In this document: piece after piece, positions 9,112 through 25,195 of the stretch
Layout: each line of letters opens with the position of its first letter
How positions within the stretch are numbered: position 1 is the stretch's first letter
Origin: Aggregatibacter sp. 2125159857
GTDB lineage: Bacteria > Pseudomonadota > Gammaproteobacteria > Enterobacterales > Pasteurellaceae
DNA: 64,000 nt
NCBI RefSeq assembly: GCF_017798005.1
Contig: NZ_CP072548.1
Location: 434,001 to 498,000, forward strand
Direction of reading: 5' to 3'
Program-made: the position numbers and the translations under genes
The notes under the pieces: model-generated
The model's input: the letters and a program-made list of their open reading frames with translations, nothing else
What the model was told of the DNA's origin: nothing
Database searches by the model: none

Positions 9112-10479
9112 ATGACAACTCAAGCACTCAGCGTCGTCATTTTGGCGGCCGGCAAAGGCACCCGCATGTATTCCGATTTACCCAAAGTCTTACATCCGAT
9201 TGCGGGCAAACCGATGGTGAAACACGTTATTGACACAGCGAAACAACTTGGCGCGCGCAATATTCATTTGGTTTACGGACACGGTGGCGATTTAATGCAA
9301 CAGCGTTTGGCGGCGGAACCGGTGAATTGGGTTTTGCAAACAGAACAGCTCGGCACAGGGCATGCGATGCAACAGGCTGCACCGTTTTTTGCGGATGACG
9401 AAAATATTTTGATGGTGTACGGCGATGGACCGATGATCACGCCTGAAACCTTGCAAAAGTTGATTAATGCCAAGCCTGAAAATGGCGTTGCTGTTTTAAC
9501 GGTGGTATTGGATAACCCAACAGGATATGGCCGAATTTTACGTGAAAACGGTAAAGTCATTGGGATTGTGGAGCAAAAAGATGCCTCACCGGAACAACGG
9601 GAGATTCGTGAGATCAATACGGGGGTTTTGGTTGCTGACGGCGCGAGTTTTAAGAAATGGCTTGCTCAGTTAGACAATAATAATGCGCAAGGCGAGTATT
9701 ACATTACAGATGTCATTGGGCTAGCAAATCGTGATGGGCGTGCTGTTGTTGCAGTACAAGCTGAGGATTTTATGGAAGTTGAAGGTATTAATAACCGTCA
9801 ACAATTAGCGCGCATGGAGCGTTATTTTCAGCGTAAACAAGCGGATAAACTGATGTTGGCAGGCGTGATGCTGTTAGATCCTGAGCGTTTTGATTTGCGT
9901 GGTAACTTGACTCACGGCAAGGATGTTGAAATAGATGTTAACGTGATTTTAAACGGCAAAGTGCGGTTGGGAAATCGGGTGAAAATCGGTGCCGGCTGTG
10001 TGCTGACGAACTGTGATATCGGCGATGATGTGGAAATCAAACCGTATTCTGTATTGGAAGATGCCACTGTGGGCGCCAATGCGGCTATCGGCCCATTCTC
10101 TCGCTTACGCCCGGGCGCAGAATTAGCAGAAAACACCCATGTGGGCAACTTTGTGGAAATTAAAAAAGCACAAATCGGCAAGGGATCCAAAGTGAACCAC
10201 TTAACCTATGTGGGCGATGCGGAAATTGGTCAAAATTGTAATATCGGCGCAGGCGTGATTACCTGTAACTACGATGGTGCCAATAAATTTAAAACCACTA
10301 TCGGCGATAACGTCTTTGTCGGCTCCGATAGCCAACTTATCGCGCCAGTGACGATTGAAAGCGGTGCAACAATTGGCGCCGGTTCCACTATCCGCTACGA
10401 TGTTAAACGCGACGAACTGGTCACCACCCGTGTGCCACAAAAACACGTGCAAGGTTGGGAAAGACCGAAGAAAAAATAG
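9112..10479 (+). CDS. glmU: Bifunctional GlmU (UDP-N-acetylglucosamine pyrophosphorylase / glucosamine-1-phosphate N-acetyltransferase)
   Basis: GlmU makes UDP-GlcNAc, the precursor of peptidoglycan and lipid A, from glucosamine-1-phosphate, acetyl-CoA and UTP. The N-terminal uridylyltransferase half opens with [19 protein letters not shown] (from residue 11). The C-terminal half (about 250 on) is a left-handed beta helix of hexapeptide repeats, including [21 protein letters not shown] and NYDG, typical of the acetyltransferase site. The length of 455 matches the family. It diverges from leuS and is followed by its own terminator. Confidence 0.98.
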
Positions 10480-10501
10480 CTCGAATAAATTGAGCAATTC
10501 A

Positions 10502-10536
10502 AAGAGCAACGCAGTTAGGCTGTGTTGCTCTTTTTT
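10502..10536 (+). terminator. Terminator downstream of glmU
   Basis: AAGAGCAACGCAG and CTGTGTTGCTCTT form a long stem with a six-base loop and a run of T residues. It is a standard rho-independent terminator. Confidence 0.88.
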
Positions 10537-10749
10537 ATGATTTTTGAGGTATAAAGTGCGGTGATTTTTTTATATTTTTTGAGCGACTTCAAATCTCGAT
10601 CTATTCATCACTATAATTATGTATGCATTCAAGTTAAACTAAAGGAATAGCGTTAAAATACGGTGTGGAAATGCGCCGGATTTGATTTCAGAGAATAGGC
10701 ACTTTCTATCCACTTCGGAAAAGGCGAATGTATTTGATTGGAGAATAAC

Positions 10750-11004
10750 ATGAAAAATTACGATCCGTTGCGTATTGAATGGGATTGTCGGCGTGGGATG
10801 CTGGAGTTGGATAAGGTCATCATGCCGTTTTATAAACAGCATTTTGAGCAGTTAAGCGAGCATAAAAAAGCCATTTTTGTTCGCTTGTTGGCTTGCAGTG
10901 ATTTGCAGTTGTTTTCTTGGTTCTTTAATCATGGCGAAATTGCGGATCCGCAATTGGCTGACATGGTACAGGAAATTCAGCAAAAGCTTAATCTAACACA
11001 TTGA
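10750..11004 (+). CDS. sdhE: FAD assembly factor SdhE (YgfY family)
   Basis: SdhE (84 residues) helps attach FAD covalently to the flavoprotein subunits of succinate dehydrogenase and fumarate reductase. The diagnostic RGxxE motif is present as RRGMLELD near residue 15. The open frame reaches back to a TTG at 10738, but the ATG at 10750 has GGAG six bases upstream and gives the normal family length, so I use it. It lies just upstream of rpoE with a separate sigma-E type promoter between them. Confidence 0.93.
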   Translation: MKNYDPLRIEWDCRRGMLELDKVIMPFYKQHFEQLSEHKKAIFVRLLACSDLQLFSWFFNHGEIADPQLADMVQEIQQKLNLTH

Positions 11005-11038
11005 TTTGCATTATTTTATTCATTTTTATAAAAGAACT

Positions 11039-11065
11039 GAACTTTTTTTTATTCATTTCGTCTAA
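11039..11065 (+). promoter_or_regulatory. Sigma-E type promoter of the rpoE operon
   Basis: GAACTT (11039-11044), a spacer of exactly 16 bases, then TCTAA (11061-11065) matches the sigma-E consensus GAACTT-N16-TCTRA. It lies about 60 bases before the rpoE start. This implies positive autoregulation of rpoE as in E. coli. The match is seen; activity is inferred. Confidence 0.82.
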
Positions 11066-11125
11066 TTTGCTGTAAGCTTGCTGGCTTTGAAATTAAAGTT
11101 TGTGAGACGTAATATTTGAGGTGAT

Positions 11126-11701
11126 ATGGCTGAACAGCTAACAGATCAAGCTTTGGTAGAAAGGGTGCAGCAGGGAGATAAGAAAGCTTTCAATTTGTTG
11201 GTATCGCGTTATCAAAATAGAGTCGCCGGATTGTTAACGCGGTACGTTTCACCGAATGATATTCCCGATGTTGTACAAGAATCATTTATAAAAGCCTACC
11301 GTTCTATCGGTGCTTTTCGTGGTGATAGTGCTTTTTATACTTGGCTATATAGAATCGCAGTAAATACTGCAAAAAATTATTTAACGGCACAGGGTCGCCG
11401 TCCTCCAAATGAAGATATTTTGGCTGAAGAGGCAGAGTCTTACGATGTCGGATCGAATTTACGGGATGTGGCAACACCTGAAAACGAAATGTTATCTAAC
11501 GAATTAAAGAAAATTGTGTTTGATACCATTAAAGGCTTACAAGAAGATTTACGCACAGCAATTACTTTGCGCGAAATTGAAGGATTGAGTTACGAAGAAA
11601 TTGCGGAAATTATGGAATGTCCGGTGGGGACGGTCAGATCACGAATTTTTAGAGCACGTGAAATTATTGAAAGCAAGGTCAAACCGCTTTTACAACGTTA
11701 A
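11126..11701 (+). CDS. rpoE: RNA polymerase sigma-E factor (extracytoplasmic stress)
   Basis: RpoE (191 residues, same as E. coli) directs transcription of envelope-stress genes when misfolded outer membrane proteins accumulate. Region 2 includes the YQNRVAGLLTRYV and DVVQESFIKAYRSI blocks, and region 4 ends with YEEIAEIMECPVGTVRSRIFRARE. The gene starts at GAGGTGAT followed by ATG. It heads the operon rpoE-rseA-rseB-rseC and is preceded by a promoter of its own class, so the operon should be self-activating once RseA is degraded. Confidence 0.98.
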   Translation: MAEQLTDQALVERVQQGDKKAFNLLVSRYQNRVAGLLTRYVSPNDIPDVVQESFIKAYRSIGAFRGDSAFYTWLYRIAVNTAKNYLTAQGRRPPNEDILAEEAESYDVGSNLRDVATPENEMLSNELKKIVFDTIKGLQEDLRTAITLREIEGLSYEEIAEIMECPVGTVRSRIFRAREIIESKVKPLLQR

Positions 11702-11742
11702 TTGAAAATTAAGAATACCACTACGGTGAGTCGGAGTAAAAA

Positions 11743-12330
11743 ATGCAAAAAGAATTACTTTCAGCATATATGGACGGTGAGCAAGTGAATCCTACGTTCA
11801 CCGAACAATTATGCCAAGATGCGGAATTGCAGGAAAGTTGGGAAGATTTTCACACCATTCGTTCTATTATGCGTCAAGAATCGAATGTTGTATTAGGCGC
11901 TGATTTCACCGCCAAAATGGAAAGCTTAATTGCAACAGAAGAGATTCAAGTGCCTAACGCAATGACGTCTCAACCGTTGCCACAGGAAGTGGAAAATACG
12001 CCGTTCATGCAAAAATTGAAAGCGTGGTTTATGCCGATAACACAGGTTGCCGTTGCAGCAAGCGTGTGTTTGGTAGCCGTATTAGGCGTGCAGTCTTTTA
12101 ATGCGAAATCTACCGTTCAAAGTGCGGTGGATGCGCCAGTATTACAGACCCTGCCTTTTAACAATGGTGTGCAAGAAGTGAGTTACAATGCGCCAAGCAA
12201 AGATGTGATGACAGCTGAGCAGCTTGAGCAAAAAAATAAGCGTATTGGTGCGATGTTGCAAAGTTATGAACTACAACGCCGGGTTTATGCGGATTCCATC
12301 AATTTGGGACAAAACCGCAACAATAAATAA
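11743..12330 (+). CDS. rseA: Anti-sigma-E factor RseA
   Basis: RseA is a single-pass inner membrane protein that holds sigma-E inactive until DegS and RseP cleave it. The N-terminal cytoplasmic domain starts MQKELLSAYMDGEQV, the RseA-N signature. A hydrophobic helix near residues 102-118 (VAVAASVCLVAVLGVQ) is followed by a periplasmic part ending near residue 195. That is slightly shorter than the 216 residues of E. coli. It lies 42 bases after rpoE. A hairpin separates it from rseB. Confidence 0.93.
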   Translation: MQKELLSAYMDGEQVNPTFTEQLCQDAELQESWEDFHTIRSIMRQESNVVLGADFTAKMESLIATEEIQVPNAMTSQPLPQEVENTPFMQKLKAWFMPITQVAVAASVCLVAVLGVQSFNAKSTVQSAVDAPVLQTLPFNNGVQEVSYNAPSKDVMTAEQLEQKNKRIGAMLQSYELQRRVYADSINLGQNRNNK

Positions 12331-12360
12331 TCCTGTGTTTCGGGATGACCATTTTATAAG

Positions 12361-12388
12361 AATTCACCACCATTTTGGGTGGTGAATT
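12361..12388 (+). terminator. Hairpin between rseA and rseB (attenuator or partial terminator)
   Basis: AATTCACCACC (12361-12371) and GGTGGTGAATT (12378-12388) form a perfect 11-bp stem with a six-base loop, followed by TGTTTATT. It lies just upstream of the rseB ribosome binding site. It could reduce read-through into rseB-rseC or protect the upstream mRNA end. The T tract is interrupted, so full termination is doubtful. Confidence 0.5.
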
Positions 12389-12408
12389 TGTTTATTAGGA
12401 ATTTGATC

Positions 12409-13368
12409 ATGTTAAAAACATTTTTAAAAACCACCGCACTTTTTTTCTTACTCAGTACTTCATTTTCTTCTGTCGGTGCCGAAACGCTTTCGGCGAAACA
12501 GTTGTTGCAGGAAATGAAGAAAGCCGCCGATCAGCTCAATTATGAGTTTTCTTTTGTGCAAACCACGCCGTCCAATATGGATTCGTTGCGTTATCGTCAT
12601 TTTAAAGTGAACGGCAAAACATTTGCGCAATTAGTGACACTTGATGGCGCTCAACAAGAAATTATTCAACGCGATAAATTAATTAGCTATTTCCAGCCAA
12701 ACTATCAACCCTTTAGCATTAACAGTGAAGGAATTACCGATAATTTGCCGCCACTCATTCGTGCGAATTTTGATACCTTGGAGCAATACTATGATTTTGT
12801 GAATATCGGGCGTAATCGCGTAGCGGATCATGTGGTGCAAACCATTCGAATTTTGCCGAAAGACGATTTTCGTTATCAATATGTTGCTTTTATTGATGAA
12901 GAGAATAACTTGTTGTTGCGCAGCGATATGTTGGATCGCGATGGCAATTTATTGGATCAATTCCGTGTCGTTAATGTGTATGTGGGAAATGGAATTTCAG
13001 GCTTAGTGGATTATTTCAATCAAGTGGCTTTCCCTCCGTTATTAATGGATAAAAATGCCAATCAAACGCCAAACTTTACTTGGGCGCCGGGTTGGTTGCC
13101 ACAAGGTTTTAAAGCGGTAAATCGTAGTATTGAACGTGATAGCAATGATAAAATTGAATCACAACTTTATAGCGACGGACTTTTTTCTTTTACGTTATAT
13201 GTATCTGATAAAATGACTGAAAATACACAGCCGGACAATACGTGGCGACAAGGCGCATACACGATTTATAACGAAACCGTGGGCAATAAAGAGGTGACAA
13301 TTATTGGGCAATTACCGATTTCTACGGCAAAACGTATTGTGCAAGACATTCAATTTAACAAAAACTAA
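12409..13368 (+). CDS. rseB: Sigma-E regulatory protein RseB
   Basis: RseB (319 residues) is a periplasmic protein that binds RseA and shields it from DegS until it senses displaced lipopolysaccharide. A signal peptide (MLKTFLKTTALFFLLSTSFSSVGA) is followed by a MucB/RseB fold with an N-terminal LolA-like part and a C-terminal domain (about 215-319) starting FTWAPGWLPQGFKAV. The open frame extends back to a GTG at 12379 inside a hairpin, but the ATG at 12409 preceded by TTAGGA fits the signal peptide and is chosen. Confidence 0.93.
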   Translation: MLKTFLKTTALFFLLSTSFSSVGAETLSAKQLLQEMKKAADQLNYEFSFVQTTPSNMDSLRYRHFKVNGKTFAQLVTLDGAQQEIIQRDKLISYFQPNYQPFSINSEGITDNLPPLIRANFDTLEQYYDFVNIGRNRVADHVVQTIRILPKDDFRYQYVAFIDEENNLLLRSDMLDRDGNLLDQFRVVNVYVGNGISGLVDYFNQVAFPPLLMDKNANQTPNFTWAPGWLPQGFKAVNRSIERDSNDKIESQLYSDGLFSFTLYVSDKMTENTQPDNTWRQGAYTIYNETVGNKEVTIIGQLPISTAKRIVQDIQFNKN

Positions 13369-13379
13369 ACAGGCTTATT

Positions 13380-13817
13380 ATGTTGACAGAAAGTGCGGTC
13401 GTGATTGAATACGAATCCGGCAAGGCGAAAGTCAAATGCCAATCACAAAGCGCGTGTGGCAGTTGTGCAGCGAAATCCGCTTGTGGAAATTCCGCATTAT
13501 CGGAATTAACCGGTAGCGGTGCGCGTGGTGAGCATATTTTCACCATTGAAACCATTACCCCGCTAAAAGTTGGGCAGCGGGTGGAGATTGGTTTGTCTGA
13601 ACATTCCTTGATCAAATCGGCGTTACTGATGTATTGTGTTCCGTTGTTCACCTTATTATTCAGCACGCTGTTGTTTGATTCGTTGTTGAGTCACGAGCTT
13701 GTCAGTGTATTTTTTATTTTTATTTCCACCGCACTTTCCTTTCTTGGTGTGCGCTGGTATGCCCAAAAACTGAACCGTAAATCGGCTTACCAACCGGTGT
13801 TATTACGCGTACTTTAA
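13380..13817 (+). CDS. rseC: SoxR-reducing / sigma-E modulating protein RseC
   Basis: RseC (145 residues) is an inner membrane protein with a cysteine cluster at residues 23-37 (CQSQSACGSCAAKSACG) that may bind a redox centre. Two hydrophobic helices (about 80-95 and 102-119) follow. It is the last gene of the rpoE operon, starting 12 bases after rseB. In E. coli the homologue modulates sigma-E and takes part in reducing SoxR. An uptake signal lies within its first codons, so coding and uptake functions overlap. Confidence 0.93.
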   Translation: MLTESAVVIEYESGKAKVKCQSQSACGSCAAKSACGNSALSELTGSGARGEHIFTIETITPLKVGQRVEIGLSEHSLIKSALLMYCVPLFTLLFSTLLFDSLLSHELVSVFFIFISTALSFLGVRWYAQKLNRKSAYQPVLLRVL

Positions 13818-13878
13818 CGTAGATGACGCTCTATTTTATCGCATTATGTCGTCTCTAGGCGATGGCTTTGAGCCTTCC

Positions 13879-14934
13879 TTATGTTTCATTGGAAGGCCAA
13901 GCATTGACAACGGCTTTAACCAGTGTGGCGAGCGGAATTGCGAAAAATACCCCCCAGAATCCCCACAAGCCGCCAAAAATAAGCACCGCAATAATGATAA
14001 TCAGCGGATGTAAATTCACGGCTTCCGAAAAAAGAAAAGGCACAAGTAGGTTACCGTCTAAGAGCTGTGTGATGATAAATGTGATCACGATGTACCAAAA
14101 CGTATGGGTATCACCGAACTGAAAAATCGCAACCAGCACGACAGGAATGGTCACTAACACCGCACCGATATAAGGCACTAATACGGAAAGTCCGACCGCT
14201 ACGGCTAATAATAATGGGTAATTTAAGCCGAAAATGAGAAAGGTGGCGTAGGTGATGATGGTGACCACCAAAATTTCCATTAATTTTCCACGAATATAAT
14301 TGGCGATTTGTTGTTGCATTTCTAACCAAACCACAGAGGCTAATGTTCGGTTACGCGGTAGAAAACGGCTGACGCCGGCAATTAATTGTTCTTTATCTTT
14401 CAGCAAGAAAAAAATCATTAACGGCACAAGAAAAGAATAAATCCCCAATGTCACCAAGTTCATGATCGAGGAAAGAGAGAGTTTTAAGGCAGATTCGCCT
14501 AAACCGAGAATTTTAGTACGCACGGAACTGAAAATAGAATCAACCATTTGATAGTCAATTAATTCCGGGTAGTGTTCCGGCAAGGAGAGCAGCCATTCAT
14601 TAAATTTATTGAACATATGTGGTAAATCGCCTAATAATCCCGCCATTTGTCCCCATAGATTAGGGATTAAAACGACAACAATTAAGAAAACCAAGCCGAT
14701 AAATCCACCTAAAATAATGGTGCTAGCGAGTAGTCTTGGACATTTTAAGCGCGTATTTAACCAACGAACGGGCCATTCTAAAAGATAAGCAAGCACAATG
14801 GCAACGAGCAAGGGTGCAATCAAATCACTCAAAAAATAGATTAAGATAAAGCCAAATAACAAAATGGCAAATAATCCCATCGCTTGCGGATCGCTGAAAC
14901 GACGAACGTACCACGTTTTTAACATTTCAATCAT
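13879..14934 (-). CDS. perM: AI-2E family transporter / permease PerM
   Basis: This 351-residue polytopic inner membrane protein belongs to the AI-2E (UPF0118) family. It has about eight hydrophobic helices and the conserved C-terminal block [55 protein letters not shown]. It resembles E. coli PerM (YfgO). Some family members export autoinducer-2 or exchange Na+/Li+ for H+, but the substrate of this subgroup is not known. It diverges from an arsC-like gene, the same neighbourhood as yfgO/yfgD in E. coli. Confidence 0.88.
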
Positions 14935-15008
14935 AATAAATACCTCTGTAAAACGGGTACGATTATAAGTTAAAATTTGAGCGAATCACATATACAGAAG
15001 GAATTTCC

Positions 15009-15362
15009 ATGTCACTTATTCTTTTTCATAATCCTCGTTGTTCAAAAAGCCGTGAAACATTAGCTTTATTAGAACAGCGCCATATTCATCCTAAAATTGA
15101 GCTTTATTTGCAAAACACTTATACCCCGGCTGAATTACAGCATCTTGCAGATAAATTAGGTATTAGCGATATTCGACAAATGATGCGAACAAAAGACGCG
15201 TTATATGGTGAACTGGGTCTGGATAACCCGAGTTTGAGTCAAGAGGCGCTTTTGCAAGCGATTAGTCAGCATTCCTCACTTTTAGAACGCCCCATTCTTA
15301 TTAACGACAATAAAGCCAAAATAGGGCGCCCGCCGGAAAGTGTATTGGCTATTTTAGATTAG
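15009..15362 (+). CDS. arsC: ArsC/YfgD family glutaredoxin-dependent arsenate reductase-like protein
   Basis: This 117-residue thioredoxin-fold protein has the ArsC active-site cysteine near residue 12 in FHNPRCSKSRETL, and a C-terminal RPILINDNKAKIGRPPESV block. Family members reduce arsenate using glutathione and glutaredoxin. There is no arsenite pump or ArsR gene nearby, and the chromosomal YfgD-like copies often have no proven role in arsenic resistance. The start is supported by AGAAGGAA upstream. It is divergent from perM. Confidence 0.85.
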   Translation: MSLILFHNPRCSKSRETLALLEQRHIHPKIELYLQNTYTPAELQHLADKLGISDIRQMMRTKDALYGELGLDNPSLSQEALLQAISQHSSLLERPILINDNKAKIGRPPESVLAILD

Positions 15363-15474
15363 AAAAAATGTAATTATTTTTGACCGCACTTTGAGGGGGG
15401 GATGAATTAACTGCTTGTAGCGTAAAAACTGATTGAAGCGTAAATTGGGTGCGGATTTGATGATTGAAATAACC

Positions 15475-15505
15475 TAAAAAAATACCCTGCTTTTGCAGGG
15501 TATTT
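15475..15505 (-). terminator. Terminator downstream of rpmA
   Basis: AAATACCCTGC and GCAGGGTATTT form an 11-bp stem with a four-base loop. On the minus strand it is followed by a T run, ending the rplU-rpmA transcript. Confidence 0.88.
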
Positions 15506-15524
15506 ATTTGTTCTCAGTGTAAAA

Positions 15525-15782
15525 TTATTCAGTAACGATACTTACGTATTTACGGCTTTTCTCGCCTTTTACTTCAAATTTTACTTTACCATCGGCTGTC
15601 GCAAATAAGGTGTGGTCACGTCCCATTCCAACGTTGTTGCCTGCGTGGAATTTAGTACCACGTTGACGAACGATGATGCTACCTGCTAATACAGATTCGC
15701 CACCGAAACGTTTAACACCAAGGCGTTTAGCTTCAGAATCACGACCGTTACGAGTTGAACCACCAGCTTTTTTAGTTGCCAT
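15525..15782 (-). CDS. rpmA: 50S ribosomal protein L27
   Basis: L27 (85 residues) lies near the peptidyl transferase centre of the large subunit. The N-terminus [20 protein letters not shown] is unmistakable, followed by [22 protein letters not shown]. It starts 20 bases after rplU on the same strand, the classical rplU-rpmA pair, and is followed by a strong terminator. The obgE gene, which often follows, is not here. Confidence 0.98.
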
Positions 15783-15802
15783 CTACTTGATCTCCTCTGA
15801 AA

Positions 15803-16114
15803 TTATGCTTGAATCCCAGTGATTTTCACTTCTGTGAACCACTGACGATGACCTTGTTGTTTACGGCTGTGTTTACGACGACGGAACTTAACGATTTTTA
15901 CTTTATCGCCACGACCTTGCGCAACTACTTCAGCCACTACTTTTGCACCAGCAACGACTGGGGCACCGATTTTAACATCTTCACCATTAACGACCATCAA
16001 CACTGAATCGAATTCAACTGTTGCGCCAGTTGCAAGTTCAAGTTTTTCTAAACGAACCACTTGACCTTCGCTTACTCGGTGTTGTTTACCGCCACTTTGG
16101 AAAACTGCGTACAT
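15803..16114 (-). CDS. rplU: 50S ribosomal protein L21
   Basis: L21 (103 residues) binds 23S rRNA. The N-terminus [20 protein letters not shown] and the basic [19 protein letters not shown] block define it. An open frame extends 15 codons further upstream, but the ATG at 16114 preceded by GGAG gives the universal MYAVF start and is used. It heads the rplU-rpmA operon and diverges from ispB. Confidence 0.98.
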
Positions 16115-16353
16115 AAATACTCCGCTATCATTGTGCTCTAATGTTGTTTCATTTCGCACATAAAATTCATATAAATAGGGCGCAAATTCTACGTAAAAAT
16201 TTGCCTTATGGCAAGGACTTCTTTAAAAGAAAATAAAAAATCCCACAAATTTTCCGGAACGATTTCAGAAAGCCTAAAAAATCAGGTAAAATCGACCGCA
16301 CTTTATGCCTCAGTTTTAACGTAACCGGCCTTATGTAGCCCAAATTGACCAAA

Positions 16354-17343
16354 ATGAAGACAACAAACTTAATGGATATGAATGCGATCCAGGCGTTAAG
16401 CCAAGCGGATATGCAAAAAGTGAACGAATCGATTTTAGCCCAACTGAACTCAGATGTGGTGTTGATTAATCAATTGGGATTCTACATTGTGCAAGGTGGT
16501 GGCAAACGCATTCGTCCCTTAATCGCTGTGTTGGCGGCAAGAGCCTTGGGTTTTGAAGGGCAAAAAGCCATTACGTGCGCTACCTTTGTCGAATTTATTC
16601 ACACGGCATCTTTGTTGCATGATGATGTCGTCGATGAATCGGATATGCGTCGCGGACGTGCCACAGCCAATGCGGAGTTTGGTAATGCCGCAAGCGTGTT
16701 GGTGGGCGATTTCATTTATACCCGCGCGTTCCAATTGGTTGCTCAGCTGGAATCGTTAAAAATTTTGCGCATTATGGCGGACGCCACCAATGTGTTGGCA
16801 GAAGGCGAAGTGCAACAATTAATGAATGTGAACGATCCGCAAACCAGCGAAGAAAATTATATGCGGGTAATTTACAGCAAAACCGCTCGTTTATTTGAGG
16901 TGGCGGCGCAAGCTGCCGCAATCATTGCCGATGCGGATGACGAGCAGGAAAAAGCATTACAGAATTACGGTCGTTATCTCGGTACGGCATTCCAGTTGGT
17001 GGATGATGTGTTGGATTACAGCGCGAATGCCAAAGCGCTTGGGAAAAATGTGGGCGATGATTTAGCTGAAGGCAAACCGACCCTTCCTTTATTACACGCG
17101 ATGCACCACGGCAATGAGCAACAAGCCGCATTAATTCGTGAGGCTATTGAGCAAGGCGGAAAACGCGAGGCCATTGATGAGGTGTTAGCCATTATGGCTG
17201 AGCATAAATCCCTTGATTACGCGATGGGTCGCGCTAAACAAGAAGCGCAAAAAGCCGTTGATGCGATTCAAGTTTTGCCGGAAAGCGAATATAAACAAGC
17301 GTTAATTTCTTTGGCCTATTTATCGGTAGATAGAAGTTATTAA
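16354..17343 (+). CDS. ispB: Octaprenyl diphosphate synthase
   Basis: IspB (329 residues with this start) extends farnesyl diphosphate to the C40 side chain used for ubiquinone and menaquinone. The two aspartate-rich motifs are present: [15 protein letters not shown] and [17 protein letters not shown] binds isopentenyl diphosphate. A TTG at 16345 and downstream ATGs are also possible starts, and no clear ribosome binding site decides between them. ispB is divergent from rplU, as in E. coli, and its stop is next to the queH start, so the two are likely coupled. Confidence 0.96.
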
Positions 17344-17344
17344 A

Positions 17345-18073
17345 ATGACAGAACAACAATTTCAAAGTGCAGTCAGTTTTCAACATAAAACACGCAAACA
17401 AAAACCGCGTAAAGATCCGAATGCGCCGTTTATTCGTGAAAAACTGGAATTGCCCGAAGGGCACAATAAACTGCTTTTGCATTCCTGCTGTGCCCCTTGC
17501 TCGGGGGAGGTGATGGAGGCTATTTTGGCGTCCGGTATTGAATTTACGATTTATTTCTACAACCCGAACATTCACCCGTTAAAAGAATATTTAATTCGTA
17601 AAGAAGAAAATATTCGTTTTGCACAGAAATTTGGTATTCCGTTTATTGATGCTGACTACGATCGTCAAGAATGGTTTGATCGTGCTAAAGGCATGGAATG
17701 GGAGCCAGAGCGTGGTATTCGTTGTACCATGTGTTTCGATATGCGTTTTGAAAAAGCGGCTGAATATGCCCATGAACATGGTTTCCCGGTCTTCACCAGT
17801 TGCCTTGGGATTTCCCGCTGGAAAGACATGGAGCAAATTAACGGTTGCGGTCATCGTGCGGCAGAAAAATATGATGATGTGATTTATTGGGATTACAACT
17901 GGCGTAAAGAAGGTGGCTCACAACGGATGATTGAAATCAGTAAACGCGAGCGTTTTTATCAGCAAGAATATTGCGGTTGCGTTTATTCTTTGCGTGATAG
18001 TAATAAATGGCGCGAACAAACCGGCCGTCAAAAGATTGAAATTGGTAAACTTTATTACTCACCGAATCAGTAA
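17345..18073 (+). CDS. queH: Epoxyqueuosine reductase QueH
   Basis: QueH (242 residues) reduces epoxyqueuosine to queuosine in tRNA, the last step of queuosine synthesis; it is the non-cobalamin alternative to QueG. The cysteine pattern of the family is complete: HSCCAPCSG near residue 44, the CTMCFDMR pair near 125, and EYCGCVYS near 205. These hold an iron-sulfur cluster plus a second metal in studied homologues. The gene starts one base after the ispB stop. An uptake-signal-like stretch occurs in its first codons. Confidence 0.93.
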
Positions 18074-18095
18074 GTCATTCCATGTATTGATTCAT

Positions 18096-18152
18096 GGCAG
18101 ATAAATTTCAGGCGAAGTTTGCTTTTCTAGAGTGTTTATCTGCCTTTTCTTT
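18096..18152 (+). terminator. Terminator downstream of queH
   Basis: GGCAGATAAA (18096-18105) and TTTATCTGCC (18135-18144) pair, with a 29-base loop that may fold further, then TTTTCTTT follows. It is a probable terminator of ispB-queH. Confidence 0.6.
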
Positions 18153-18292
18153 ATTCTCTTCAATTGCTATTTCTTCTACCTCCAACAGGTAAAATTCTTC
18201 GAAAAATCTGCTTTTTTGCTAGCGGGAAAAAGCGCAACTCGGTAGAATAGCCAGTCAATTTTTATGAACCATTAGAGTAAATTTTAGCCAGT

Positions 18293-19717
18293 ATGACGCA
18301 AAAACTACATATTAAAACTTGGGGCTGCCAGATGAACGAGTACGATTCATCTAAGATGGCGGATTTATTACACAGCACACACGGTTTGGAACTTACCGAA
18401 GTGCCGGAAGAAGCGGATGTTTTATTGTTAAATACCTGTTCCATTCGTGAAAAAGCACAGGAAAAAGTCTTCCATCAATTAGGTCGTTGGAAAGAATTAA
18501 AGAAAAATAACCCGAATTTATTGATTGGCGTAGGCGGTTGTGTGGCATCGCAGGAAGGCGAACATATTCGCACTCGTGCGCCTTATGTGGATATTGTTTT
18601 TGGGCCGCAAACGTTGCATCGTTTGCCTGAAATGATCAACCAAATCCGCGGTGGGAAAAGCTCCGTTGTAGATATTAGCTTCCCGGAAATTGAGAAGTTT
18701 GACTGTTTGCCGGAGCCTCGTGCTGAAGGCCCAACAGCGTTCGTTTCTATTATGGAAGGCTGTAATAAATATTGCACTTATTGTGTAGTGCCTTATACCC
18801 GTGGCGAGGAAGTCAGCCGTCCGGTAGATGATATTTTATTTGAAATTGCGCAGTTAGCCGCACAGGGAGTGCGTGAAGTAAACTTGCTTGGTCAAAACGT
18901 GAATGCTTATCGTGGGCCGACATTTGACGGTGAAATTTGTACCTTTGCGGAATTATTGCGTTTAGTCGCTGCCATTGATGGTATTGACCGCTTACGTTTT
19001 ACCACGAGCCATCCAATCGAATTTACCGATGATATTATCGATGTGTATCGTGATACCCCGGAGCTCGTGAGTTTCCTTCATTTGCCGGTGCAATCCGGTT
19101 CAGACCGTGTGTTAACCATGATGAAACGCGGACATACAGCGCTTGAATACAAATCCATTATTCGCAAACTAAAAGCGGTACGTCCGAATATTCAAATCAG
19201 TTCTGACTTCATTGTAGGCTTCCCGGGGGAAACCAATGAAGATTTCGAGCAGACCATGAATTTGATCGCCCAAGTGAACTTCGACATGAGTTTTAGCTTC
19301 ATTTATTCTGCCCGTCCTGGTACACCAGCGGCAGATTACCCTGACGATGTCACCGAAGACGAGAAAAAACAACGTTTATATTTGTTGCAACAACGTATCA
19401 ATAACCAAGCGGCACAATTCAGCCGTGCGATGTTAGGCACGGAGCAACGTGTATTAGTGGAAGGTCCGTCCAAGAAAGATATTATGGAATTAACCGGACG
19501 TACGGAAACCAACCGCATTGTGAATTTCCAAGGCACGCCGGAAATGATCGGGAAATTTGTCGACATTAAAATCACGGATGTATTCACGAACTCCTTACGT
19601 GGTGAAGTGGTGCGCACCGAAGATCAAATGGGCTTACGTGTGTTGCAATCGCCACAAATGGTAATTAACCGCACCCGTAAAGAAGATGAGCTGGGTGTAG
19701 GCCGTTACACCGGCTAA
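18293..19717 (+). CDS. miaB: tRNA-2-methylthio-N6-dimethylallyladenosine synthase MiaB
   Basis: MiaB (474 residues) is a radical SAM methylthiotransferase that adds the 2-methylthio group to i6A37 of tRNAs. The N-terminal cluster cysteines lie in [23 protein letters not shown] and GGCVASQEG. The radical SAM CxxxCxxC is in [18 protein letters not shown] (near residue 155), and a C-terminal TRAM domain ends the protein. It is monocistronic, with a terminator shared with the convergent priC gene. Confidence 0.98.
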
Positions 19718-19772: not shown

Positions 19773-20345
19773 CTATTTTTGCTTTTCGAGGAAAATTAAA
19801 TATTCCTCTAACATTTCGATGGCTTCCAAGCAACGGGCGCGACGTTGTTCTAGTTGTTCCAGTTTTAATCGGTTAAATGGAAGTCCCTCTCTCTGCGCTT
19901 CACTTAAACTGTCTTGCTCGTGCTGAATTTTCTCATTAAAAGACGCTAAATATTCATAATATTTTGCCAAGCGCTCGCGCGGTGGCAGGCTGTGTACGGG
20001 ATGTTGACGTTTATTTTGCGGTTTATTTTCTTCTTTATCTTTAACGGGAAAGAGTTGCGCATTTTGCTGTTGACGCGTTAAGGCATCCGAAAGTGCGGTG
20101 CATTGTGCGGATAGTTTTTGCGTGTAAAACTGCCAGGCTTCAATGTTATCCCTTTCAATCTGTTCAAGCTGCATAAGAGAGTGTTCGATCTGCGCAAAAT
20201 AAAATGCCGTTTTTTGCCAATTTTCCGTAAACAGATTGGGTGAAAATTTGGCATAAACAATCTCTTCTTTTTGCGTGGCGTAACGCGCGAAGAAATCCTG
20301 GAAACTTTGTTTTAAGCGTTGGGTGGAAATGTTGTTCATAGCCAT
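19773..20345 (-). CDS. priC: Primosomal replication protein PriC (N'')
   Basis: PriC helps reload DnaB at stalled replication forks. The protein is highly charged and helical. It has the family N-terminus (MNNISTQRLKQSFQDFFARY), a central coiled coil (LSAQCTALSDALTRQQQN) and a C-terminal RLKLEQLEQRRARCLEAIEMLEEYL helix. The open frame begins at 20393, but those codons lie in the terminator of the upstream gene, so I place the start at the ATG at 20345 (190 residues); the ATG at 20339 is equally possible. No strong ribosome binding site is visible. Confidence 0.8.
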   Translation of the reverse strand: MAMNNISTQRLKQSFQDFFARYATQKEEIVYAKFSPNLFTENWQKTAFYFAQIEHSLMQLEQIERDNIEAWQFYTQKLSAQCTALSDALTRQQQNAQLFPVKDKEENKPQNKRQHPVHSLPPRERLAKYYEYLASFNEKIQHEQDSLSEAQREGLPFNRLKLEQLEQRRARCLEAIEMLEEYLIFLEKQK

Positions 20346-20349
20346 AAAA

Positions 20350-20397
20350 AAGCAAAAGTGCGATGGAAAATTGATGTGTTTTTCCGACCGCACTTTT
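20350..20397 (-). terminator. Terminator downstream of the putative histidine transporter
   Basis: On the minus strand AAAAGTGCGGTCGGAAAAA pairs imperfectly with TTTTTCCATCGCACTTTT, followed by GCTTTTTT. The right-hand uptake signal carries a mismatch (GCGATG for GCGGTC). It lies between the transporter gene and priC and reaches almost to the priC start. Confidence 0.65.
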
Positions 20398-20401
20398 AGG
20401 G

Positions 20402-21751
20402 TTAGAGAGTCATTGCTGCAAGCCAGCCAAAGGCTAACAACGGAATGTTATAGTGAATGAAGGTAGGTACAACAGAATCCCAAATGTGGTCGTGTTTACC
20501 ATCCATATTCAAACCGGATGTTGGCCCTAAGGTTGAGTCGGAAGCCGGTGAACCCGCATCACCTAATGCTGCCGCAACGCCCACGATAGACACGGTGGCA
20601 AGTGGGGAGAAGCCGAAAGACAAACAAAGCGGTACATAAATCGAGGTGATGATTGGCACCGTAGAGAAGGAAGAGCCGATCCCCATGGTGATCAACAAGC
20701 CGACGAATAACATTAAGAACGCTGCAAGTCCTTTACTTTGTAAGCCTTGCCCTAACGCTTGTACTAAGTCTGTTACGCCACTGGTGGTATTAATCACATT
20801 AGCGAAGCCGGACGCGGCGATCATCACAAAGCCGATCATGGCCATTAAGCGTAAGCCTTGTTGGAAAATGTCGTTGCTTTCTTTGAGCTTGAAGATACCA
20901 AACACGGCAAAAATGATTAAACCGACCAAACCACCGATGATAGTAGAGCTTGTGACTAATTGCGTGGTGAAGGTTGCTACAATCGCAACAAGACTTGCGG
21001 TGATTTGTTTTGGTGTAATGTTAGCAATGTGTTGCTCAATGTCTTGCGTTGTCGGTTCTGCTGTAGTGACGCTGTATTCACGCGGTTTGCGATAAGTGAT
21101 AAACACGGCAGTCAATAAACCTAAAATCATCCCGGTTACCGGAATCATCATGGCAAGGGAAACTTCACTGACGGTTGTTTGTAACCCCAATGGCGCACCG
21201 ACATGATTAATATTTTTCACCAAAACGCTTTCGATAAAGATTTTACCGAAACCCACCGGTAATAACATATAGGTGGCGGTTAAACCGAAAGTGAGGACGC
21301 AAGCCACGGCGCGACGGTCAATTTTCAGTTTGTTGAACACGGTAAGTAGAGGTGGAACCACAATAGGAATAAACGCAATGTGCACCGGTAGCAGGTTTTG
21401 TGAGGAAATTGAGAACAAGACCAAAATCCCTAATAAGGCATACTTGAACATGGCAATCCCATTGGCAGAGGGGGTTTTGTTCATGCGGGTAATCACTTTA
21501 TAGGCAAGTAAATCAGTGATGCCGGATTTGGAGATGGCAATGGCAAAGGCACCGAGCATGGCATAGTTCATTGCCACTTCAGCACCACCGCCGAGGCCAC
21601 CGGTAAAGGTTTCAATGGTTTTTGTGAGTCCTAGATTACCAATTAAACCTGCGGTGAGGGCAGAAATAACCAAGGCTATGACCACGTTAATTCGCAGCAA
21701 GCTGAGAACTAGCAAGACCGCGATAGAAATAACAACTGGGTTAGTAAGCAT
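20402..21751 (-). CDS. NhaC/YuiF-type transporter, putative histidine transporter
   Basis: This is a 449-residue polytopic inner membrane protein with about eleven or twelve helices. Family blocks include MNYAMLGAFAIAISKSGITDLL and the C-terminal GVAAALGDAGSPASDSTLGPTSGLN. It belongs to the Na+/H+ antiporter (NhaC-like, YuiF) superfamily, where annotation as an antiporter is only by similarity. About 250 bases upstream lies a leader peptide with five consecutive histidines followed by alternative hairpins. The gene is therefore controlled by histidine supply, and the product is best read as a histidine (or precursor) importer. Comparative studies have made the same proposal for Pasteurellaceae YuiF homologues. 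Substrate is inferred from regulation, not from sequence. Confidence 0.82.
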   Translation of the reverse strand: MLTNPVVISIAVLLVLSLLRINVVIALVISALTAGLIGNLGLTKTIETFTGGLGGGAEVAMNYAMLGAFAIAISKSGITDLLAYKVITRMNKTPSANGIAMFKYALLGILVLFSISSQNLLPVHIAFIPIVVPPLLTVFNKLKIDRRAVACVLTFGLTATYMLLPVGFGKIFIESVLVKNINHVGAPLGLQTTVSEVSLAMMIPVTGMILGLLTAVFITYRKPREYSVTTAEPTTQDIEQHIANITPKQITASLVAIVATFTTQLVTSSTIIGGLVGLIIFAVFGIFKLKESNDIFQQGLRLMAMIGFVMIAASGFANVINTTSGVTDLVQALGQGLQSKGLAAFLMLFVGLLITMGIGSSFSTVPIITSIYVPLCLSFGFSPLATVSIVGVAAALGDAGSPASDSTLGPTSGLNMDGKHDHIWDSVVPTFIHYNIPLLAFGWLAAMTL

Positions 21752-21851
21752 TTTTTTGTCCTTATGATTTAAGTTATTGATAATTTACTAGAGAAATAAA
21801 ATTTGTCTAATAAAATCATAGATTAATTTCTAAGGCATTTATTTTTACGGT

Positions 21852-21893
21852 AAAAAAACAAACCCCTCGAAAGTCAACTTCCGAGGGGCTTAA
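21852..21893 (-). terminator. Histidine attenuator terminator (segments 3:4)
   Basis: On the minus strand AAGCCCCTCGGAAG pairs with CTTTCGAGGGGTTT around a short loop, and a run of T residues follows. It is a rho-independent terminator placed between the histidine leader peptide and the transporter. Its 5' arm (CTCGGAAGT) can instead pair with the 3' arm of the preceding hairpin. Confidence 0.88.
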
Positions 21894-21917
21894 AGGGATA
21901 GCGTTTTATTCGTGCCT

Positions 21918-21939
21918 GCTCGGAAGTCATCTTCCAAGC
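21918..21939 (-). promoter_or_regulatory. Histidine attenuator pause hairpin (segments 1:2)
   Basis: On the minus strand GCTTGGAAG and CTTCCGAGC form a hairpin with an ATGA loop just after the leader stop codon. Its 3' arm, ACTTCCGAG, is an exact complement of CTCGGAAGT in the terminator's 5' arm. The antiterminator 2:3 is therefore mutually exclusive with both 1:2 and 3:4, the classical attenuation layout. Confidence 0.85.
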
Positions 21940-21958
21940 ACACCAAATACCTGAAAGA

Positions 21959-22003
21959 TCATTCAGTTACGTGGTGATGATGGTGACGACGAATAAAGCG
22001 CAT
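21959..22003 (-). CDS. Histidine leader peptide (HisL-like), 14 aa
   Basis: The 14-codon frame encodes MRFIRRHHHHHVTE, with five consecutive histidine codons (CAC CAT CAT CAC CAC). AGGAG (22012-22016 on the complement) lies eight bases before the ATG. It is followed by a pause hairpin and a terminator. Scarcity of charged tRNA-His would stall the ribosome on the His codons, favour the antiterminator and allow transcription of the transporter gene. It resembles the leader of the his operon but here precedes a transporter, with no his biosynthetic gene nearby. Confidence 0.92.
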   Translation of the reverse strand: MRFIRRHHHHHVTE

Positions 22004-22240
22004 TTGGGAATCTCCTAGTGAATTGCTTTTTAAACTACTGGAAAATATTTTTTATCGCAAGTGTTTTTTCAAAAAAATGTGAAGTGCGGTCGATATTCTC
22101 GAGGTTTTTATGTTTTGAAGAAAACATACGGGAATTTGCCTCAGTGTGTTTTAGGATTTTCGCCGATATGCAATAAAACGCATACGTAACCTATTTAATT
22201 GAAAAAAACACAGTAAAAACTCACCGCACTTTTTAGAATC

Positions 22241-22775
22241 GTAGCGTGCAACTCGTTGCACGAATAAAACGCTCGTGAGGAAAATCATTTGTGCATCAAG
22301 ATGCACGCTACAATATGAAATCACGCTCCCTGTAGCGTGCAACTCATTGCACGAATAAAAATGCTCGTGAGGAAAATCATTCGTGACACGCTACGCACGA
22401 AATTGTGAATGCCTGAAAGGGCTAAATATCGTTCCGTGCGTGGTTTGGTCGTGCATCAAGATGCACGCTACAATATGAAATCACGCTCTCCGTAGCGTGC
22501 AACTTGTTGCACGAATAAAAATGCTCGTGAGGAAAATCATTCGTGACACGCTACGCACGAAATTGTGAATGCCTGAAAGGGTTAAATAATGTTCCGTGCG
22601 TGGTTTGGTCGTGCATCAAGATGCACGCTACAATATGAAATCACGCTCTCCGTAGCGTGCAACTTGTTGCACGGATAAAAACGCTCGTGAGGAAAATCAT
22701 TCGTGGCAGGCTACGCATGAAATTGTGAATTACGCATCGCGTAGGGTTTTTATAGTCAGACTTTGTTTGGCTATA
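22241..22775. repeat. Composite intergenic repeat, copy B: tandem 160-bp units
   Basis: This stretch downstream of the TonB receptor gene carries no credible gene. The palindrome GTAGCGTGCAACTTGTTGCACG starts units at 22241, 22332, 22492 and 22652. The last three are exactly 160 bases apart, and the two full units differ at about five positions. The first unit lacks about 70 bases from its middle. Each full unit holds the complement of the 95-bp block seen in copy A, with cores in both orientations. The array ends in a hairpin at 22751-22775 (TATAGTCAG...TTGGCTATA), the inverted counterpart of hairpins at 5663 and 53003. Between 22020 and 22240 I see only an uptake signal and AT-rich leader promoter DNA. 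Confidence 0.85.
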
Positions 22776-22858: not shown

Positions 22859-24937
22859 TTAGAACGTGTAGTTTACACTTAAACGAACGTCACGACCTGG
22901 CTCAGGCAAGGTGGATACGCCTGCGCGTTGGCTGTGGCTGCGGTAGTATTTGTTGAACGCATTGTTTAATGCCAGGTTGACGTTAACGTTTTTAACCGGT
23001 TTCCAAGTTACATAGAAATCGTTCACGCCATACCCCGGACGTTTGGTGGTGGTTGCTCCGCCGCCACGGTTGTTGGTGGTGGAATCGTAGCTGGTATGTT
23101 GTACAAAGCGACCTTTCCAGCCGATTTCTACGTCAGGTTGTTCGAAACGGTAAGAGGCGCCGGTGGTCCAAGTGCGACCGATTGGAATCGCCGTGACGGT
23201 GTTGTCCACGGTTCTGCCGTCCAATTCCGGTTTGCTGTAAGCCACGCCGGCACGCAAGGTTAAGCCTTCATATTTATAGGCGGTGCCTAACTCGTAACCG
23301 TGATTTCTTAATTTGCCGGCATTTTGGATTTCATAATAACCCTGTCTGATTTGCGTAAAGGCGTGCGTGTCCTGAACGGTTTGCCAGAAATAGCTACCAT
23401 TTAAGGAAAGGCTATCAGCGAATTTATAGTTGAAACCCACTTCTGCATTGCGAGATTTTTCCGGTTTGATGTTGTTGGCGATGGAATACACGGCCGAGCC
23501 TCCTCGGCTAGCGCCTGAAGAAAGCATGATTTCGTGGAAACGCGGGCTACGGGTAGCATAGTTTAAGCTGGTATTTAAACTAAGATCATTGGTGACTTCA
23601 TAAATCAACCCTACGCTTGGATTCACACTGCCTTTCTTGGATTTTGAACCGTCCATGGCACGGAAATTGAAGTGATCGTAACGCAAACCGGTGGTTAAGG
23701 TGAATGCGCCTAAGCCCCAAATGCCCTCTGTGTAAACACCGACTTCACGTTTCTTTTGAGTCTTCATTTGGATGCCGTTTTGTACGGTAAGAGAATTCGG
23801 TTTACCTTCTTGATCGCGGTAATTGACACCGTATTTGATTAAGTGAGATTCACCGATAGGTGAATCCAAGTTTACGTTGGCGCCATTGGCAATTAAACGG
23901 ATTCTGGAACGTTCGCTCGGCTCTTCACGGCTAATTACACTGCGCCACACATTGACCTTGGCATTGCTGATAAAGCCCATGTTTTGCCCTGTCCATTCAA
24001 TTTTGCTGGTGTCATTGGTGGTGATGCGATAGCGAGGGGCGTTATTTGCCGTATTCGGAATTTTGTTGCCATCGCGATCTAAAACATACCAAGTATTCCC
24101 TTCTCGGTTTAACGTATAGCCGTTTGCACGCTGTTCTTTTGTGAGTGCCGGTGGGTTGCCATTTCGTCCATTTGCCGTTAGCCAATCCTGTGAAAAGTCA
24201 AATTCTTCACGAAGTGCACGAACGCCATAATGACGTTCTTGACGATGACTTAATTCAATTCGGTGATCTTCATTCAAATCTGCGCCAACTTTTGCTAATA
24301 AGCCCCGTTGACCTAATGCACTATTTTTGATTTTGTAGCCGTTGCCTGCTTTATACTCGCTTTCTTTGACCCAGTTACCGGAAATTAACGCATCCATCAT
24401 ACCGGCGCGTGAATAAACGGTTGCGCCTTTGCTCCAGCCTTTGTTTGAGCTCACGCCGGCATTTAGTTTAAAACCAACGTCTTGACCTTCTTTCAGCAAG
24501 TCTTTTGCGCTCACGGTTTCCGCAACGATTGCACCGCTGGTTGCACCGATGCCGGCACTGGCGGATCCTGTGCCTTTTTGTACGCTGACTTTCTTCAATA
24601 GTGCCGGATCAAAGATGAAACGACCTTGATGGTGGAAAAGTTGAGCATCGGTATAAGCATCATCCACTTTTACATCCACTTGATCTTGCCCCATCCCACG
24701 AATGGTAAACCACTGTGATGTGCCGCGACCGCCACCGAAGTTAATCGCCGGTTCGTCTTTCAATAAACCTTTTAATTCGGTTTCCGTGCTGCGATTAATG
24801 GATTCCGTTGTAATCACATTGGTTTTACTTTTTGCACCGGTATTTTCAGACACCACGTTAATCACGTCTAAGTTGTCCGCATAAACAGCGGTGGTAACTA
24901 ACATTGCGAGGGGAAGCAAGGAAAAATGTTTGCGCAT
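22859..24937 (-). CDS. TonB-dependent outer membrane receptor
   Basis: This outer membrane protein (692 residues with this start) imports an iron or metal complex using energy from TonB. A signal peptide (MRKHFSLLPLAMLVTTAVYA) is followed by a TonB-box-like segment (NLDVINVVS), a plug domain (about 40-160, with FTIRGMGQDQVDVKVDDAYTD) and a 22-strand barrel ending in a C-terminal Phe (RDVRLSVNYTF). The open frame extends 50 codons upstream, but ATG 24937 with AGGAG before it fits the signal peptide. The ligand is uncertain: heme, hemoglobin or a siderophore are the candidates. A Fur-like palindrome lies upstream, supporting iron regulation. Confidence 0.9.
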   Translation of the reverse strand: MRKHFSLLPLAMLVTTAVYADNLDVINVVSENTGAKSKTNVITTESINRSTETELKGLLKDEPAINFGGGRGTSQWFTIRGMGQDQVDVKVDDAYTDAQLFHHQGRFIFDPALLKKVSVQKGTGSASAGIGATSGAIVAETVSAKDLLKEGQDVGFKLNAGVSSNKGWSKGATVYSRAGMMDALISGNWVKESEYKAGNGYKIKNSALGQRGLLAKVGADLNEDHRIELSHRQERHYGVRALREEFDFSQDWLTANGRNGNPPALTKEQRANGYTLNREGNTWYVLDRDGNKIPNTANNAPRYRITTNDTSKIEWTGQNMGFISNAKVNVWRSVISREEPSERSRIRLIANGANVNLDSPIGESHLIKYGVNYRDQEGKPNSLTVQNGIQMKTQKKREVGVYTEGIWGLGAFTLTTGLRYDHFNFRAMDGSKSKKGSVNPSVGLIYEVTNDLSLNTSLNYATRSPRFHEIMLSSGASRGGSAVYSIANNIKPEKSRNAEVGFNYKFADSLSLNGSYFWQTVQDTHAFTQIRQGYYEIQNAGKLRNHGYELGTAYKYEGLTLRAGVAYSKPELDGRTVDNTVTAIPIGRTWTTGASYRFEQPDVEIGWKGRFVQHTSYDSTTNNRGGGATTTKRPGYGVNDFYVTWKPVKNVNVNLALNNAFNKYYRSHSQRAGVSTLPEPGRDVRLSVNYTF

Positions 24938-25015
24938 AAATGCTCCTATTCCTATAAAGGTTAATGAAAGATGAAATTTATCGCGAAGAAATTTAACGTA
25001 TTTACTTATTGTATG

Positions 25016-25033
25016 CAAATAATTCTTATTTAT
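25016..25033 (-). promoter_or_regulatory. Fur-box-like operator of the TonB receptor gene
   Basis: On the minus strand TAAATAAGAATTATTTGC contains the perfect palindrome AAATAA-GAA-TTATTT, resembling the Fur consensus of repeated AT-rich hexamers. A possible -10 (TATAAA) with TTGTCT 16 bases before it lies immediately upstream, so a bound repressor would overlap the promoter. The remaining intergenic DNA between this gene and cysS (24938-25195) shows only an uptake signal near 25080. Confidence 0.5.
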
Positions 25034-25195
25034 ATTCTCAACTATAAAATAGACAACATAAGAAAACACAACATTTTTTGACCGCACTTTATCTGCTTTT
25101 GTGGTTGGCTATGCGCATCAGGTTTCTGATTGCGCCAAAAGATGAGTTGAGTCTGGAAATTGTACGAGTGAAGTACATTTGAAATGGGAATAAAC

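Follow-up and report, generated by a model that had tools for sequence, protein, structure and literature searches.

A his-operon-type attenuator ahead of a YuiF-type carrier gene in Aggregatibacter, with a candidate outer helix

Why should a gene that carries the name of a Na+/H+ antiporter stand behind a leader peptide with a run of histidine codons? The question is raised by a locus in a stretch of 64 kb (the window, meaning the whole stretch of DNA analysed) of contig NZ_CP072548.1 from Aggregatibacter sp. 2125159857, a member of the Pasteurellaceae, where the gene of a YuiF-type carrier of 449 aa (20402..21751, minus strand) is preceded by a regulatory leader at 22016-21852 on the same strand. 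All coordinates given here are positions in the window, L-numbers denote loci, G-numbers denote Pasteurellaceae genomes, and the papers cited by PMC number are cited for passages of them. Our answer, to which we give a probability of about 0.9, is that a histidine importer stands under the control of a ribosome-mediated attenuator like that of the his operon. The switch and the carrier are both of known kinds; what deserves attention is a further conserved helix of the switch.

The attenuator and its alternative folds

The leader peptide, MRFIRRHHHHHVTE, is encoded by an open reading frame (ORF) at 22003-21959 and is identical in the genomes G020 and G021. Its five consecutive His codons (21985-21971) are present as the original prediction had described them, and so is a good ribosome binding site, the Shine-Dalgarno (SD) sequence AGGAGA at 22016-22011, 7 nt ahead of the leader ATG. 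The window contains a single run of five CAY codons, and of 200 dinucleotide shuffles of its sequence 2 contain one. The Rfam covariance model RF00514 (His_leader) matches 21983-21855 of the minus strand over its whole length (model positions 1-126 of 126), with 64.8 bits against a gathering cut-off of 49 and an E value of 5.7e-8 for the 64 kb window; this is the single His_leader match of the genome, which consists of one contig and is rated 100% complete. The folding energy of 21995-21852 is -59.1 kcal/mol (z -7.1 versus shuffles). The promoter-like site found upstream (TTGAAA-17-AATATT, 22044..22072, minus strand, 9/12 matches) is weak, being one of 5 such sites on the two strands of 21750-22200, where 1.7 are expected.

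The element is an attenuator of the his-operon type with six segments, in which the hairpins A:B, C:D and E:F alternate with the pairings B:C and D:E, all on the minus strand. A:B (21941..21976) joins 21976-21972 to 21945-21941 and has an inner stem of 21966-21962 with 21955-21951; C:D (21917..21940), delimited by folding and conservation, joins 21940-21931 to 21926-21917; and E:F (21892-21859) is an intrinsic terminator with a 15-pair stem, followed by a U-run at 21858-21852. The antiterminating fold has a B:C hairpin of 13 pairs, obtained by constrained folding (21929..21959; 21959-21947 with 21941-21929) together with the D:E pairing (21877..21927), in which ACTTCCGAG at 21927-21919 is the exact complement of CTCGGAAGT at 21885-21877. 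This complementarity had been noticed before, and it corresponds to D:E of the six-segment scheme. The mutual exclusion of hairpin arms that went with it also stands, but the arrangement of two hairpins in a 1:2/2:3/3:4 scheme has to be replaced by three hairpins and six segments, as in hisL.

The conservation of the two folds was analyzed in the leaders found before yuiF in the Pasteurellaceae; 50 of the 57 are distinct, identical ones being counted once. Standard pairs occupy 90.3% of the cells of the terminating fold (29.6-61.7% in slid controls), and in 9 of its 35 pairs both sides have changed. The antiterminating fold is paired in 98.5% of the cells (33.3-61.2% in slid controls), its D:E pairing in 97.6% and the 7-pair core of B:C in 99.7%. 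Many pairs of the antiterminating fold are invariant across the leaders and hence little informative alone, and in many relatives neither the outermost C:D pair nor the outer three pairs of the terminator stem seen in the window are conserved. The identification of the leader as a His attenuator is based on the covariance model and on the conservation of both alternative folds.

The effect of the ribosome on the choice between the folds was computed, using a fixed footprint. In transcripts that end after C, stalling of the ribosome at the His codons makes B:C prevail over A:B in 56/56 yuiF leaders (that of the window forms 13 B:C pairs) and in 30/34 hisG leaders; with the ribosome at the stop codon this happens in 0/56 and 0/34, respectively. 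When the transcript ends after E, 61% of the 56 yuiF leaders favour D:E over C:D under a stalled ribosome, and none of them does so with the ribosome at the stop codon or absent. These results are consistent with the following course of events. With ample His-tRNA, the ribosome would reach the stop codon and cover B, C:D would form, E:F would pair, and transcription would end ahead of yuiF. With scarce His-tRNA, the ribosome would halt on the His codons and cover A and the start of the leader; B:C would then form once C is made, D would be left free for E and no terminator would arise, so that yuiF would be expressed and histidine brought in. We infer the response to His-tRNA and histidine as the substrate, as well as the locking role of the outer helix that is described below.

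The carrier, its substrate and its distribution

The carrier matches PF13726 with 109.7 bits and PF03553 with 257.1 bits, both above the cut-offs, a combination that we take to define the YuiF-type family. Its public names are Na+/H+ antiporter, and PF03553 itself is named Na_H_antiporter; the earlier description of an NhaC/YuiF-type carrier usually named Na+/H+ antiporter was therefore accurate. The window's YuiF is nearest to that of Aggregatibacter segnis among the named relatives (97% identity), which belongs to the same genus, and a PF13726 match was also found in the Bacillus subtilis control genome. No match was obtained with the carrier in a search of NCBIfam or in a sequence search of solved structures. 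The best listed matches of its predicted fold are carriers of the DASS/INDY, ArsB, AbgT and TRAP types, and the fold is silent on the substrate; NhaA- and NhaP-type antiporters are absent from the listed matches, which excludes nothing.

The substrate is indicated by relatives of the carrier and by the genome in which it lies. In Staphylococcus aureus, labelled histidine is taken up through SAUSA300_0846, a YuiF-type protein annotated as NhaC; uptake is nearly lost in the mutant and restored on complementation, and the mutants of five other cation/proton antiporters do not have the acid phenotype of the 0846 mutant (PMC10817146). YuiF has also been listed as a histidine permease under the control of HisR and, in two auxotrophs, of a T-box (PMC9413887). 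In the Aggregatibacter genome, searches for HisG and HisD, the remaining his genes not being searched, found neither; two marginal matches of the HisA/F type, with 23.9 bits (cut-off 23.6) and 20.8 bits, we take to be other proteins. With neither hisG nor hisD found, uptake is what the switch should serve, and histidine probably comes from outside the cell. By analogy, the window carrier very probably imports histidine despite its antiporter label, which upholds the substrate proposed by the original prediction. The accompanying argument, that regulation tells more than homology in this case, holds to a lesser degree than was proposed, since with the S. aureus protein and the HisR and T-box listings both of them say histidine.

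Leaders of this kind are widespread. RF00514 has a match in 133 of 140 Pasteurellaceae genomes (above the cut-off in 131), PF13726 in 139 (G083 is without any) and HisG in 104, the genomes without hisG being defined as the complement of these 104. The leader matches number at least 150; of the 150 listed, 81 are situated upstream of hisG and 50 upstream of the best YuiF hit, the other 19 being elsewhere. Loci of the best YuiF hit were examined in 136 of the 139 genomes, leaving out the lower-scoring best hits of G067, G086 and G098, and a His-rich leader peptide precedes yuiF in 57 of the 136 (L051-L102, L105, L107, L168, L175 and L177), including 9/9 genomes of the window's genus. The leaders were searched for as short ORFs, a procedure that can miss some. 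The short ORFs with His codons in L103, L108, L150 and L179 were discarded as non-leaders on the grounds of position or sequence, and so were one additional ORF in L093 and a second one each in L074, L081 and L086; the leader of L085, which the length filter had passed over, was included after visual inspection. A FastTree tree of YuiF requires at least 7 changes between presence and absence of the leader. A second short ORF with an AGGAG, with starts such as MRH, MQRHHHY and MQHHY, was observed between the terminator and yuiF in many leaders from three other genera (L055, L058, L062, L074, L086, L087 and relatives); it is not seen in the window.

Several observations weigh against the reading of the locus as an attenuator that governs histidine import. 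In transcripts ending after C, B:C already prevails over A:B without any ribosome in 15/56 yuiF leaders (and in 7/34 hisG leaders). When a ribosome is stalled on the leader of the window and the transcript ends after E, C:D retains 4.64 expected pairs at equilibrium versus 0.54 of D:E; given that C:D wins at equilibrium despite the stall, the antiterminator of this leader would depend on B:C forming first, during transcription. NhaC presumably belongs to the same superfamily as the matches of the predicted fold, so this fold is compatible with antiport. The proposal to look for the same leader before this family in other Pasteurellaceae was rewarded at the 57 loci mentioned above, and at the other 79 of the 136 no such leader was found by the short-ORF search; histidine control is therefore not general in the family. 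Finally, a yuiF leader is present in 25/35 genomes without hisG versus 32/101 with it (Fisher p 5.6e-5, kinship ignored), and a link between the missing hisG and the yuiF leader was rejected, being unsupported on the tree (4 independent pairs).

Two other explanations of the locus can be set against these data. The attenuator could be real and the carrier could move some other cargo, protons, sodium or a histidine-related solute, with histidine control existing for another reason. The public names and the name of PF03553 point that way and the predicted fold does not speak on the matter, but the uptake of histidine by the S. aureus relative, whose acid phenotype as a mutant is not shared by those of the five other antiporters, the placement of the family under HisR and His T-boxes elsewhere, and the failure to find HisG in the same genome make this explanation very improbable. 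Alternatively, the leader could be left over from a lost his operon, have come to stand before yuiF and be free of selection by now. Neither HisG nor HisD was found in this genome, and contig C9 of the congener G015 carries a decayed his region, with a short hisG frame and a stop inside a HisA/F-type frame, no HisD match being found in G015. Against this, a hisG leader and a yuiF leader are both listed in 25 genomes, including the congeners G016-G019, and the leaders of 13 genera preserve the folds while pairs have changed on both of their sides; we reject the relic as hardly credible. The control of a histidine importer by attenuation thus remains our preferred reading.

An outer helix around the attenuator

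The minimum-energy fold of the window's leader contains, in addition, a long-range helix (21901..22001, minus strand) in which 22001-21985 pair with 21916-21901 of the D-E spacer in blocks of 3+9+3 pairs; its 5' arm consists of the start of the leader and codons 2-6. This outer helix encloses D but not E, and its coexistence with D:E would therefore need a pseudoknot. A penalty on pairing between leader start and spacer makes the ribosome-free RNA of the window switch to D:E (7.03 vs 0.01), and 32% of the 56 yuiF leaders do the same, for which reason we read the helix as a lock of the terminating fold. It would form only when no ribosome occupies leader codons 2-6, and would then shut out D:E; a ribosome in the stalled position would hide its 5' arm.

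The register of the helix shifts between genera; for this reason it was examined by a permutation test, in which leader starts were paired with their own spacers or with those of other genera, rather than by the counts from alignment A1. The search for pairing between leader start and spacer could read 107/190 loci, among them 34/37 hisG leaders and all the 57 yuiF leaders except L053. In the yuiF leaders (13 genera, 41 distinct) the own spacer pairs with -12.27 kcal/mol versus -7.15 kcal/mol across genera, and in the hisG leaders (25 genera, 33 distinct) with -10.26 versus -7.78 kcal/mol; in both cases 0/20000 permutations reached the own value, which we read as co-variation of the helix between genera. 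For the leaders of DppA-type genes alone, which are described below, the figure was 317/20000 (5 genera, 6 leaders).

The helix could also be an accident of leader composition without function. It is missing from the Rfam RF00514 model and, in the passages at hand, from the A-F scheme of PMC4046918; as a partner the own spacer ranks first by itself in just 7/13 genera for the yuiF leaders and 4/25 for the hisG leaders; and outside the Pasteurellaceae the signal is weaker (own -11.67, cross -9.98, 114/20000, with 13/28 loci readable). Moreover, one of six tests with control stretches was positive: the 30 nt upstream of the SD region, paired with the spacer in the yuiF leaders, gave 15/20000, perhaps because the spacer also pairs with the SD region in several genera. 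However, the remaining five controls were null (10452 to 19125 of 20000), and within the family the leader starts fit their own spacers far better, on average, than those of other genera. We consider an accident unlikely, and favor a functional helix.

Other genes behind His leaders bear on how far histidine control extends. Of the 19 leaders found elsewhere, 10 precede an aminotransferase gene, some with an intervening gene or a longer gap, that we take to be hisC (4 of the 10 were tested, all PF00155), 1 precedes hisD and 2 lie at contig ends. The other 6 (L036, L043, L044, L045, L048 and L050, in six genomes of five genera) precede a gene of the DppA/SapA binding-protein family (PF00496), for which the best NCBIfam model is DppA, with 704-801 bits, below the cut-off of 1005. 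These targets suggest a histidine control of peptide uptake, and the predicted ligands are histidine-containing peptides; a literature search showed, among the papers listed, none on the control of DppA-family peptide uptake by a His leader. A broader proposal can be put together from these data: His attenuators would have an extra functional outer helix, formed by the leader start (in some genera together with the SD region) and the D-E spacer; a stalled ribosome would break this helix, which in other situations would bar the antiterminator. The Pasteurellaceae, in turn, would have a small His regulon that comprises biosynthesis, uptake by YuiF and, in some species, a peptide-binding protein of the DppA family. 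We give this proposal an even chance.

The surrounding genes and the known systems

The gene next after yuiF encodes PriC (19773-20393, minus strand), and the short gap between the two holds AAGTGCGGT, which we take to be a Haemophilus-type uptake signal. In 51/80 named loci yuiF is followed by a priC relative, and priC may therefore share the histidine control. On the other side of the leader there is a tandem array (22291-22770) with 2.8 copies of a 160-bp unit, pieces of which match the own genome 135 times; the D-E spacer shares a perfect 16-nt inverted match (21900-21915) with 22258-22273 in this repeat region, either by chance or by sequence exchange. Further away, 22859-25087 (minus strand) encodes a TonB-dependent receptor whose nearest models are of the haem/haemoglobin type, below the NCBIfam cut-offs.

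These results correct the labelling as a Na+/H+ antiporter of a carrier with a domain that was found in nearly all the Pasteurellaceae genomes (139/140), and suggest how a genome in which hisG and hisD were not found senses histidine. They also provide two ideas open to testing, namely that a textbook attenuator has a locking helix and that peptide-binding proteins are under histidine control. Histidine import by the carrier is well supported, and of a known kind; Vitreschak et al. in 2004 (FEMS Microbiol Lett 234:357), in work on attenuation in proteobacteria, reportedly predicted that yuiF orthologs are histidine transporters. The S. aureus 0846 protein and the YuiF of B. subtilis, likened to the window carrier by family and description, share with it the NhaC-type annotation and a regulation linked to histidine. 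The mechanism is different, HisR or His T-boxes for proteins of those types (PMC9413887) versus a ribosome-mediated attenuator in the window. A survey that includes the Pasteurellales counted 49 His leaders and has histidine transporters among the functions controlled by RNA (PMC3766115), and a His_leader RNA lies before hisG in Actinobacillus pleuropneumoniae (PMC4809551). In the open-access literature, as far as its passages go, a search found none on a His attenuator before yuiF in the Pasteurellaceae; the supplement of PMC3766115, which may hold such a case, was not covered.

The outer helix is probably not new, since a stem at the same places has been told for the hisL RNA of Escherichia coli, where A:B is preceded by rDnaA boxes 1 and 2, box 3 is situated after C:D and before E:F, and a double-stranded stem joins boxes 2 and 3; the same account likens the leader to tRNA-His and credits this to Ames 1983 (PMC10989985). 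This box 2/3 stem is very probably the outer helix. In E. coli K-12, hisL likewise has GCGTTCA in the leader against TGAACGC in the spacer. RNA triplexes with a predicted regulatory role before hisG in the Pasteurellales and other orders, due to the Lyubetsky group, share the extra pairing, and are told without anatomy in the passages of PMC4833913; they may correspond to the outer helix. The passages on hisL stems and triplexes hold neither a co-variation test of the helix nor its exclusion with D:E, and for the box 2/3 stem this applies to the account in PMC10989985.

The closest known system is the his operon attenuator of E. coli and Salmonella, hisL, which likewise has a run of His codons in its leader peptide, the same alternation of A:B, C:D and E:F with B:C and D:E, and the same U-run. 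The leader peptides differ outside the His run, and hisL controls hisG with seven His codons, whereas the switch in the window controls a carrier with five.
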